From Azospira oryzae (GTDB lineage: Bacteria; Pseudomonadota; Gammaproteobacteria; Burkholderiales; Rhodocyclaceae), in NCBI RefSeq assembly GCF_004217225.1, contig NZ_SHKM01000001.1:1278137-1342136 (forward strand): DNA of 64,000 nt, given 5' to 3'. The notes beneath the pieces were generated by a model. It did no database searches. It was not told the DNA's origin and worked only from the letters and a program-made list of their open reading frames with translations. Position 1 is the first letter of the stretch. Every line of letters starts with the position of its first letter. Both the position numbers and the translations under genes were made by a program. Shown piece by piece: positions 58,895 through 63,032 of this stretch.

Positions 58895-59377
58895 TCAGTG
58901 GGCCATGGGCTTCCAGCCCGGGTGGTCGAAGTAGCGGCCGTAATCCTCCAGGGCGCCGAGCACCTTGGCGGCGCCGCGGCGGGGATCGCCGCCCTTGCTC
59001 TTGCCGGCCATGGCCTCGATGCCGGCGCCCAGGTCGGCCAGCACCAGATGCAGCATGGCGTCGGCTTCCGGTGCCAGTTTGCAGGCGGCAACGATGCCGC
59101 CCACCTCCCGCTCCAGACTCGCCGCCAGCTTGGCGTAGCCGGCCCGGTTCAGGCGGTTGCCGTGGATTTCCGCCAGACGGGGCTCCATGGCAGCCTGGAT
59201 ACGGCTCATGCCGTCCCGCAGGGGCGCATCGGTGGCCCACTTCTGGCCCTGGTTGAGCTGCAGGGTCGGCGTGGCGGCGCCGTGGTGGTGATGGCTGTGG
59301 TCCGCCGCCAGGCTGGATGACAGGGGCGCCGCCAGGGCCAGCAGGCTAAGGACGGTCACGAGGGGTTTCTTGTTCAT
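58895..59377 (-). CDS. His-rich periplasmic protein
   Basis: I do not assign a function to this 160-residue protein. It has a signal peptide (TVLSLLALAAPLSSSLA), followed at once by DHSHHHHG. A helical region follows (NQGQKWATDAPLRDGMSRIQ, LASLEREVGGIVAACKLAPEAD) with one cysteine and a C-terminal WKPMAH. The His cluster after the cleavage site suggests binding of a metal such as copper, nickel or zinc in the periplasm. It converges with the hydrolase gene 10 bases away. Confidence 0.65.
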   Translation of the reverse strand: MNKKPLVTVLSLLALAAPLSSSLAADHSHHHHGAATPTLQLNQGQKWATDAPLRDGMSRIQAAMEPRLAEIHGNRLNRAGYAKLAASLEREVGGIVAACKLAPEADAMLHLVLADLGAGIEAMAGKSKGGDPRRGAAKVLGALEDYGRYFDHPGWKPMAH

Positions 59378-59563
59378 GTGCTCACTCCGGTTTCTCTAGG
59401 GGCCCCTATGCTCCCCATCCGGCCAGGGAAATAACATGATCCGTCTTAAAACGAGGCGGCGGCAGAAGGTCGCAGCGCCGGCAGGAAACGGCGGCTGCCA
59501 TGACCCGGCAGGGGAAGCCCAAGCCCTGCCGGCAAGGGGCATTCCGAGCTTTTGGCGTCTACG

Positions 59564-59580
59564 TGCACCAAATTGGTGCA
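59564..59580 (+). promoter_or_regulatory. gdhA: NtrC-type palindrome at the gdhA promoter
   Basis: TGCACCAAATTGGTGCA is a perfect 8-1-8 palindrome and matches the NtrC consensus TGCACC-N5-GGTGCA exactly. Its right end overlaps a likely -10, CATAAT (59579-59584), 38 bases before the gdhA ATG. No sigma-54 -24/-12 element is visible downstream. Repression of gdhA under nitrogen limitation is the simplest reading. Confidence 0.7.
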
Positions 59581-59618
59581 TAATTCCCGGCGTTTTTTTC
59601 ATCTTCCGAAAGCACGCC

Positions 59619-60965
59619 ATGAACGACACCCTGGATTCCTTTCTTGCCCGCCTGCAACTCCGGGACCCGCAACAGCCGGAGTTTCTCCAGGCCGTGAAGG
59701 AGGTCCTGGAAACCCTGTGGCCCTTCCTCCAGGAAAATCCCCGCTACCGCCGCCTGGGCCTGCTGGAACGCATCGTCGAGCCGGAGCGGGCCATCATGTT
59801 CCGCGTGCCCTGGGTGGACGATGCCGGCCAGGTCCAGGTCAATCGGGGCTACCGCATCCAGATGAGTTCGGCCATCGGCCCCTACAAGGGCGGCATCCGC
59901 TTCCACCCCTCGGTCAATCTCTCCATCCTCAAGTTCCTGGCCTTTGAGCAGGTGTTCAAGAACTCCCTCACTACCCTGCCCATGGGCGGCGGCAAGGGCG
60001 GCGCCGACTTCGACCCCAAGGGCAAGAGCGACCTGGAGGTGATGCGCTTCTGCCAGGCCTTCATGGCCGAACTGCACAAGCACATCGGCGCCGACATCGA
60101 CGTACCGGCCGGCGACATCGGCGTCGGCGGCCGGGAGGTGGGCTACATGTTCGGCATGTACAAGAAGCTGGAAGGGGAGTTTTCCTCCGTCCTCACCGGC
60201 AAGGGCCTGGACTACGGCGGCAGCCTGATCCGCCCCGAAGCCACCGGCTACGGCACCATCTACTTCGTCGAGAACATGCTGGCCACCCGCAACATGGGTC
60301 TGGAAGGCCTGCGCGTCACCGTCTCCGGCTCCGGCAATGTGGCCCAGTTCGCCGCCCAGAAGGCCATGCGCCTGGGAGCCAAGGTCATCAGCGTTTCCGA
60401 CTCCGGCGGCACCGTGCACGACCCGGACGGCATGACCGAAGAGAAGTGGTCGGCCCTGCACCACATCAAGGAAGTGCAGCGGGGCCGGGTCGAGGACTAT
60501 GCCCGCCAGTTCGGCCTCACCTTCCTGCCGGGCCAGCGGCCCTGGTCCATTCCCTGCGACGTGGCCCTGCCCTGCGCCACCCAGAACGAGCTGGACGGCA
60601 ACGACGCCCGCACCCTGCTGCAGAACGGCGTGCGCTGCGTCGCCGAGGGCGCCAACATGCCCTCCACCCTGGAAGCGGTCCATGCCTTCCTCGAGGCCGG
60701 CATCCTCTACGCCCCGGGCAAGGCCTCCAATGCGGGCGGGGTCGCCGTCTCCGGCCTGGAAATGAGCCAGAACGCCCTGCGCCTGTCCTGGACCCGGGAC
60801 GAGGTGGACCAGCGCCTGAAGCAGATCATGCTCTCCATCCACGCCGCCTGCGTCGGCCACGGCAGCGGCCGGGGCCAGCGGGGCAGCATCAACTACGTGG
60901 CCGGCGCCAACATCGCCGGCTTCGTCAAGGTGGCCGATGCCATGCTGGCCCAGGGCGTGGTCTGA
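59619..60965 (+). CDS. gdhA: NADP-type glutamate dehydrogenase
   Basis: The 448-residue hexameric enzyme aminates 2-oxoglutarate when ammonium is plentiful. Motifs are VNRGYRIQMSSAIGPYKGGIRFHPSVN, the catalytic lysine region LPMGGGKGGADFDPKGKSD, and the nucleotide-binding VSGSGNVAQFAA. Length and sequence fit the small bacterial NADP enzyme. The start at 59619 gives the conserved N-terminus; the NtrC-like palindrome lies just upstream. Confidence 0.95.
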   Translation: MNDTLDSFLARLQLRDPQQPEFLQAVKEVLETLWPFLQENPRYRRLGLLERIVEPERAIMFRVPWVDDAGQVQVNRGYRIQMSSAIGPYKGGIRFHPSVNLSILKFLAFEQVFKNSLTTLPMGGGKGGADFDPKGKSDLEVMRFCQAFMAELHKHIGADIDVPAGDIGVGGREVGYMFGMYKKLEGEFSSVLTGKGLDYGGSLIRPEATGYGTIYFVENMLATRNMGLEGLRVTVSGSGNVAQFAAQKAMRLGAKVISVSDSGGTVHDPDGMTEEKWSALHHIKEVQRGRVEDYARQFGLTFLPGQRPWSIPCDVALPCATQNELDGNDARTLLQNGVRCVAEGANMPSTLEAVHAFLEAGILYAPGKASNAGGVAVSGLEMSQNALRLSWTRDEVDQRLKQIMLSIHAACVGHGSGRGQRGSINYVAGANIAGFVKVADAMLAQGVV

Positions 60966-60988: not shown

Positions 60989-61013
60989 AAGGCCCCGCAT
61001 GCGGGGCCTTTTT
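60989..61013. terminator. Terminator between gdhA and fadD
   Basis: AAGGCCCC and GGGGCCTT flank a GCATGC centre and are followed by TTT, with an A-run on the other side. It can stop both convergent transcripts. Confidence 0.88.
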
Positions 61014-61034: not shown

Positions 61035-62702
61035 TCAGGCCGCTTCCTTCAGGGCCCGGCGCAGGATCTTGCCCACGTTGGTCTTGGGCAGGTCGTCGCG
61101 GAACTCCACCAGATGGGGCACCTTGTAGCCGGTGAGGTTCTCCTTGCAGTGGGCGATGAGCTGCTCCTTGGTCACCGACTTGTCCTTGAGCACCACGAAA
61201 ATCTTCACCGCCTCGCCCGAATGCTCGCTCGGCACACCCACCGCGGCCACTTCCATGACCGCCGGATGCATGGCCACCACGGCCTCCACCTCGTTGGGAT
61301 ACACATTGAAGCCGGACACCAGGATCATGTCCTTCTTGCGGTCCACGATGCGCACGAAGCCCTTCTCGTCCATGACACCCACGTCGCCGGTGCGCAGGAA
61401 GCCGTCGGCGTAGAACACCGTGGCGGTTTCATCCGGGCGCAGCCAGTAGCCCTTCATCACCTGGGGGCCGCGGATGCAGATTTCGCCGGCCTGGCCCACC
61501 GGCAGGTCGTTGCCCAGGTCGTCGCGGATGACGATCTCGGTGGAGGAGATGGGCAGGCCGATGGCGCCGTTGAATTCGCCCAGGTCCAGGGGATTGATGG
61601 TGGCCGCCGGCGAGGTCTCGGTCAGGCCGTAGGCTTCGATCAGGGGCTTGCCGGTGACCTGGCGCCACTTCTGGGCCACTGATTTCTGCACCGCCATGCC
61701 GCCCCCCAGGGCCGCGCGCAGGGCCGAGAAATCCAGCTTGGCGAAGTCCGGGTTGTTGAGCAAGGCGTTGAACAGGGTGTTCACCCCGGTGATGACGGTG
61801 AACTTGTACTGGGCCAGTTCCTTGACGAAGCCCGGAATATCCCGGGGATTGGTGATCAGCACATTGGTGGCGCCGATCTTGAGGAAGGTCAGGCAGTTCG
61901 CCGTCAGGGAGAAGATGTGGTACAGCGGCAGGGCGGTGATGATCAGCTGCTGGTCCTTGTGCAGGAAAGGCTCGATCCAGGCGTGGGCCTGCTGCAGGTT
62001 GGCGATGATGTTGCGGTGGAGCAGCATGGCGCCCTTGGCCACGCCGGTGGTGCCGCCGGTGTATTGCAGATAAGCGATGTCCTCGTGGCCCACCTGCACC
62101 GGACGTAGGGTGGCGCCCTTGCCCCGGACCATGGCGGCCTTGAACTTGACGTGGCGCGGCAGCTTCCAGGCCGGCACCATCTTCTTCACGTGGCGCACCA
62201 CCAGATTGACCACGGTGCCCTTGAGCAGGCCCAGCATGTCGCCGAGGGAGGTGACGATGACGTGCTTCAGGCCCGGCACCAGGGGAAGGGCCTGCTCCAG
62301 GGTGTGGGCGAAGTTCTCGACGATGACGATGGCCTCGGCGCCGGAATCCTTCAGCTGGTGTTCCAGTTCCCGGTGGGTATAGAGGGGGTTGCAGTTCACC
62401 ACCACGTAGCCGGCCCGCAGGGCGCCGAACATGCACACCGGATACTGCAGCAGGTTGGGCATCATCAGGGCGACGCGGGCGCCCTGGGGCAGCTTCAGCA
62501 CGTCCTGCAGATAGGCGGCAAAGTCCCGGGAGAGCCGGTCCAGCTCGCCGTAGGTGATGCCCACGCCCATATTGATGTAGGCCACCCGGTCCCGGTACTG
62601 GGCACAGCTCTGCTCGAAAAGCTGGCCCAGGGACTTGAATTCGTTGACGTCGATAAACTCCGGCACGCCTTGCGGGTAACTCCGCAGCCAGATCTTTTCC
62701 AT
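61035..62702 (-). CDS. fadD: Long-chain fatty-acid-CoA ligase
   Basis: The 555-residue adenylate-forming enzyme activates fatty acids for beta-oxidation. The AMP-binding loop is [20 protein letters not shown], and [21 protein letters not shown] and the C-terminal lysine region ([12 protein letters not shown]) are conserved. The start [12 protein letters not shown] at 62702 has an AGGAGGAG ribosome-binding site. A PsrA/FadR-type palindrome is 58 bases upstream. Confidence 0.94.
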
Positions 62703-63032
62703 GGTTTGGTCTCCTCCTATGGCAGTGGCCAAGGGTCTTGTGGGTTTTCTTATTGACGGTTCAAACGACCGTTTGAAATCATTGTAACCCGAGTTTCACC
62801 CCCTTGGTAGTGGGACAGCCGGGGCCCGGGGGAAATCCCCTAGGCCCTGCCGATTCATCGCCTCACCCGGCCCCCGGCGGCCATCGCCACGGCCCTGCCG
62901 CCAGCCCCGGCAAAGGCTCCTCGGGCTGCGCCCCGGAACACCTCCCGGGCTTTTCCCGGGCCGTAAACGCCGCTGCCCGCCGGACCTGGAAGGCACGGCG
63001 GGCAGCTTGGCATGGGAGGCTACGGCGGCGGA
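62703..63032 (-). promoter_or_regulatory. fadD: fadD upstream region with PsrA/FadR-type operator
   Basis: TTCAAACGACCGTTTGAA at 62760-62777 is a perfect 8-2-8 palindrome. It fits the PsrA motif (G/C)AAAC-N2-4-GTTT(G/C), which in Pseudomonas and related proteobacteria controls fatty-acid degradation genes. Further on, CTGCCCGCCG (62973-62982) pairs with CGGCGGGCAG (62996-63005), a hairpin past the end of the CBS gene. No gene is visible in these 330 bases. Confidence 0.6.

Follow-up and report, generated by a model that had tools for sequence, protein, structure and literature searches.

A perfect NtrC-type palindrome upstream of gdhA in Azospira oryzae points to probable direct repression of glutamate dehydrogenase in low nitrogen

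The gdhA gene of Azospira oryzae is preceded, in the 64,000-nucleotide stretch of DNA analysed here (the window), by a perfect palindrome that resembles a binding site for NtrC, raising the question of whether NtrC acts on this gene directly and, if so, whether as an activator or a repressor. In enteric bacteria, gdhA is controlled via Nac, a LysR regulator that stands between NtrC and gdhA. The original prediction for the Azospira locus, made from the DNA letters, was that NtrC occupies the palindrome at the gdhA -10 element and represses the gene without an intermediary when nitrogen is low. Here, the locus is compared with its counterparts in a second Azospira species, in the family, in the rest of the order, and in more distant bacteria, and the features on which the argument turns are collected in Table 1.

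Table 1. Features at and around the gdhA locus, in window positions.
Feature	Position	Strand	Basis or remark
Divergent gene for a 160-aa small protein	58895-59377	-	By eye, a signal peptide and a His-rich stretch near the N terminus
Putative NtrC-type operator, perfect 17-nt palindrome TGCACCAAATTGGTGCA	59564-59580	.	Sequence, second Azospira species, family enrichment
Candidate -10 element CATAAT	59579-59584	+	5/6 to TATAAT; its first two bases are the operator's last two
Conserved T-run CGTTTTTTTC	59591-59600	+	Conserved in Azospira sp. I13 by alignment; presumably the start or early leader
gdhA, NADP-specific glutamate dehydrogenase, 448 aa	59619-60965	+	NF006929 over cut-off; PF00208, PF02812
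Likely terminator AGGCCCCGCATGCGGGGCCTTTTT	60990-61013		By eye; between gdhA and the convergent gene
Long-chain acyl-CoA ligase gene	61035-62732	-	Convergent with gdhA

The GdhA protein shares 94% identity with its counterpart in Azospira sp. I13 (genome G020), a member of the same genus. A longer gdhA frame opening at 59436 was considered and rejected: the 61-codon in-frame upstream extension is not coding-like, with a GC3 of 0.61 as against 0.92 in gdhA, and stops interrupt the corresponding frame in Azospira sp. I13. The start codon at 59619 therefore stands, and the palindrome ends 38 bp before this ATG. On the other side of the intergenic region, the small protein encoded by the divergent gene has no Pfam or NCBIfam match, and Azospira sp. 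I13 appears, by an unaligned comparison, to have a similar divergent frame in the corresponding position.

The palindrome matches all 14 fixed positions of TGCACCA-N3-TGGTGCA, which we take to be the consensus of the NtrC dyad and which was checked at glnA; the perfect fit that had been claimed for a site within 59552-59621 is thus confirmed. The exact pattern TGCACC-N5-GGTGCA occurs a single time in the window, at this site, and although the shorter TGCAC-N7-GTGCA occurs three times in the 3.45-Mb Azospira genome, only this copy carries the full TGCACC/GGTGCA arms. Under the base composition of the window, the exact matches expected by chance number 0.40 per genome for the 12-base pattern and 7.5e-7 for the 14-base pattern in any one stretch of 250 bp. 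A chance origin of the palindrome is rejected on the strength of the single full-arm copy, these low expectations, and an enrichment of similar sites in the family. Looser resemblance is another matter: the window holds seven matches with at most two mismatches, the gdhA site included, against a shuffle mean of 6.63, so that weaker matches mean nothing by themselves. At three or fewer mismatches, the genome has 436 motif matches on each strand (31 for the pattern read backwards), most of them uninformative, and their surroundings were inspected at glnA, ntrBC, and three amtB genes.

If the palindrome is an operator, similar sites might be expected before gdhA in related bacteria. Matches to gdhA were found in 61 of 150 family genomes, one of which carries two copies; setting aside two fragments (G087, G093) and one genome outside the set of retrieved upstream regions (G017) leaves 59 loci in 58 genomes, and removing the two Azospira loci (G000, G020) leaves 57 from outside the genus. 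The 250 bp upstream of gdhA contain a site matching at least 11 of the 14 positions in 31 of these 57, as compared with 0.81 expected from dinucleotide shuffles of the same regions (maximum of 4 in 200). Control windows within the gdhA coding sequence gave no site at this level in 28 and three at 10/14. Several sites may occur together: among upstreams L123-L181, two or three sites matching 11/14 or better lie within 250 bp at 14 of the 33 site-bearing loci, L135 having three, an arrangement that may serve cooperative repression.

Outside this set, the best 80 of 594 loci comprise 17 from Pseudomonas, Stutzerimonas, and Halopseudomonas, 50 from distant phyla including Bacteroidota, and 13 that were left ungrouped. 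The Pseudomonas group is enriched for degenerate sites, with at least 10/14 in 13 of 17 loci (1.63 in shuffled sequence) and at least 11/14 in 5 of 17 (0.21 shuffled); none of the 17 reaches 12/14, which counts against the proposal. The distant phyla are at background, with at least 10/14 in 2 of 50 loci against 1.83 shuffled. Of the ungrouped loci, L043 duplicates the G020 record; among the remaining 12, L062 (Herminiimonas) has a score of 11, L065 and L089 each have 10, and the last nine fall at 8 or 9.

The second part of the question concerns the promoter on which such a site would act. In the alignment with Azospira sp. I13, GGTGCATAAT is kept, and GTGCACCA, TTGGTGCATAAT, and GGCGTTTTTTTC are common to both species upstream of gdhA. 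The TGCACCA/TGGTGCA arms and the adjoining TAAT are retained, two central bases of the palindrome are changed, and much of the flanking sequence differs. Among 297 family genomes, an operator fused to TAAT was found in two, each an Azospira with a single copy, located at gdhA. The claim that the site sits on the gdhA -10 thus fares well in one part, the two-base overlap with CATAAT being conserved, and less well in another: the sigma-70 promoter scan returned no match at its threshold, and no -35 element was identified for CATAAT. TTGGCG at 59552-59557 was rejected for that role, as it lies farther from CATAAT (21 bp) than a usual -35 would, and it does not occur uninterrupted in Azospira sp. 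I13. Given the scan result, the sigma-70 promoter of gdhA is a plausible candidate, its assignment resting on one conserved hexamer.

The relatives add to this picture. A -10-like hexamer, defined by a simple rule based on the consensus (A at position 2, T at position 6, and at least 4/6 matches), starts between -2 and +20 from the end of the site in 21 of 33 gdhA loci, as compared with 10.1 expected from random placement, and a count of 21 was reached in none of 2000 trials. In 10 of the 33 loci the hexamer starts at +18 to +20, an interval picked post hoc, for which the fair comparison is the best of all three-wide windows; this equalled the count of 10 in 1 of 2000 random placements. A site 18-20 nt before the -10 would cover the -35 region and the Azospira site would lie on the -10 itself, and in both positions a bound NtrC would be expected to block polymerase. 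An alternative is that NtrC binds the palindrome while gdhA is really transcribed from a promoter at another point of the divergent intergenic region, such that the site would act as a roadblock or exert a weak modulation. This would accord with the lack of a sigma-70 match at the scan threshold, and with the position of the site in many relatives, about 95-140 bp before the matched GdhA start as opposed to 55 bp in Azospira. However, both Azospira species retain TTGGTGCATAAT amid neighbouring bases that vary, and in the relatives, too, -10-like hexamers closely follow the site, making it unlikely that the promoter lies elsewhere.

Whether NtrC is the protein that reads the site can be approached through the co-occurrence of the two. 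The search for ntrC covered 59 of the 61 family genomes with gdhA (all except G087 and G093) and found the gene in 54. Among these, a site at or above 11/14 lies before gdhA in 33 of 54 loci, as compared with none of five where ntrC was not found. Sampling of the rest of the order matched 31 genomes, reduced to 28 by removal of G152 (partial) and of G000 and G062 (already counted); here the site is present in 8 of 17 loci with ntrC and in 1 of 11 where it was not found. Combined, the site is present at 41 of 71 loci where ntrC occurs, but at 1 of 16 where it was not found (Fisher p 1.7e-4); the sequences are related, and neither this nor any other p value is corrected for kinship. Two observations count against the association. 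Sites of this quality are lacking despite ntrC in 30 of 71 loci (21 of 54 family loci, and 9 of 17 from elsewhere in the order), and a single exception of the opposite kind, G288 (L236), has a 13/14 site 197 bp before gdhA with no ntrC match at threshold. In G158, from the same genus as G288, ntrC is present and the best gdhA site reaches 8/14.

The palindrome could in principle belong to another regulator, such as NtrX or an unrelated dimeric repressor, and be merely NtrC-like. Short palindromes are common to several regulators, the window contains 12 perfect ones with 7-bp arms (the gdhA site among them), and the centre of this one, CAA-N-TTG, is presumably NtrX-like. Yet precisely this centre has become CATTTTG in Azospira sp. 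I13 with both arms unchanged, the presence of the site tracks that of ntrC, and a site of the same type (at least 11/14) stands before glnA in 29 of 30 genomes, these being all but two (G034, G149) of the 32 in which the 250 bp before gdhA hold a site of that quality. Recognition by a different protein is accordingly very improbable.

The comparison with glnA also bears on which sigma factor is involved. All 30 genomes have a sigma-54 promoter at glnA, with scores of 0.86-1.00 on a simple set of weights based on the consensus. Among the 34 gdhA loci whose 400 bp upstream contain a site, by contrast, 2 reach a score of at least 0.85, which is background for mononucleotide shuffles (5%). At Azospira gdhA there is no sigma-54 promoter downstream of the site, the best score in 400 bp being 0.79, at 375 bp upstream and before the site; this agrees with the earlier impression that gdhA has no visible promoter of this kind. 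A classical enhancer, from which NtrC would activate gdhA or the divergent gene at a sigma-54 promoter, has in its favour that NtrC is a sigma-54 activator and that Azospira glnA shows just such a layout, but it is hardly credible and was rejected on these background scores and on those toward the divergent gene, which reach 0.79 in this genome and 0.69 in Azospira sp. I13.

The regulator and its partners are encoded in the Azospira genome. The ntrC gene lies at C2:249602-250975, exceeding the cut-offs of both TIGR01818 (693 bits, cut-off 558.6) and NF008176 (650, cut-off 620), and its product contains the GAFTGA motif. At the same locus is ntrB (NF008293 360, cut-off 240), and both ntrB and glnA are located upstream of ntrC. 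Azospira glnA has a 12/14 NtrC-type site starting 108 bp before its sigma-54 promoter, which argues that the motif is in use in this genome. A Glu_synthase-domain match in a 1610-codon open frame fits the large subunit of GOGAT; with this gene present, ammonium assimilation via GS-GOGAT could continue. Elsewhere on the same contig, three NtrC-like sites (10, 11, and 10 of 14) precede a third amtB-like gene (L042, G000:C2:240311-240378), where a strict sigma-54 pattern had no match in 240200-240420.

A site without a sigma-54 promoter would, most simply, repress when occupied. In the mechanism we propose, nitrogen scarcity would lead NtrB to raise the level of active NtrC, a dimer of which would bind the palindrome and cover the upstream edge of the sigma-70 -10 of gdhA. 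RNA polymerase would then be unable to use the promoter and glutamate dehydrogenase would be shut off, while NtrC would at the same time activate glnA via sigma-54 and so direct ammonium assimilation to GS-GOGAT. From the sequence and its comparison we infer that NtrC binds, that gdhA has a sigma-70 start, and that the gene is repressed in a nitrogen-dependent way. Direct repression of gdhA by NtrC in low nitrogen is the best reading because the site recurs in the family, its presence tracks ntrC, a sigma-54 promoter is absent, and -10-like hexamers lie nearby; we give it a probability of roughly 0.8, and on this central point the original prediction gains support. As with Nac control in enteric bacteria, low gdhA expression would be expected in low nitrogen, but in Azospira the NtrC-type site lies on gdhA itself.

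Regulation of this type is already known, and is to that extent less new than had been implied. In Pseudomonas putida, gdhA is directly repressed by NtrC (Hervas, Canosa, Santero 2010, as described in the accessible portions of PMC5072197, PMC5648810, PMC6237917, PMC6537436), and the portion of PMC5648810 available states that this repression is independent of NtrC phosphorylation. On these partial accounts, the Azospira case would share with P. putida the regulator, the target gene, and the predicted sign under nitrogen limitation, and enrichment of sites upstream of gdhA is common to the Pseudomonas group. The layouts differ, however: most sites in that group are degenerate and lie about 90-120 bp before the start, whereas the betaproteobacterium Azospira has a single perfect palindrome that runs into a -10-like hexamer. 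Excerpts of PMC3870243 describe E. coli glnAp1 and glnLp as sigma-70 promoters repressed by NtrC, the mode of action predicted for Azospira, although the E. coli case is autoregulation of the glnALG operon and the Azospira target is gdhA.

In Herbaspirillum seropedicae, another betaproteobacterium, glutamate dehydrogenase activity was equal in an ntrC mutant and its parent at 20 mM ammonium, according to the available part of PMC5648810; this opposes a strong effect there, although at 20 mM ammonium NtrC should be little active, and low nitrogen was not covered. A regulon survey places NtrC control of gdhA in Moraxellaceae, Rhodobacterales, and deltaproteobacteria, and not in betaproteobacteria, in the portion available (PMC5343134). 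Azoarcus BH72 is said in excerpts of PMC3916325 to lack a low-affinity glutamate dehydrogenase and is thus no test of gdhA control. Among the matches listed, themselves partial texts that leave subscription literature largely uncovered, there was no report of direct NtrC repression of gdhA for the family of Azospira.

What is new, then, is the likely spread of this control through a betaproteobacterial family and, in Azospira, the apparent placement of the operator on the -10. A wider proposal can be offered tentatively. In betaproteobacteria with this glutamate dehydrogenase and NtrC, direct repression of gdhA would be usual, as in Pseudomonas, with the operator either over the -35 region (the -10 starting 18-20 nt later) or, as in Azospira, merged with the -10; the Nac relay of enterics would then be a derived substitute. 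The Azospira -10 would take its first bases from the operator, making operator and promoter one element, at which a single NtrC dimer might suffice whatever its phosphorylation.

Direct control of glutamate dehydrogenase by NtrC thus likely extends to a betaproteobacterial family that is unlisted in the accessible part of the PMC5343134 survey. Azospira gdhA would offer a single-site promoter on which repression through occupancy of the -10 by NtrC could be tested, and the case raises the question of whether direct control by NtrC came first, with the enteric Nac relay being exceptional.
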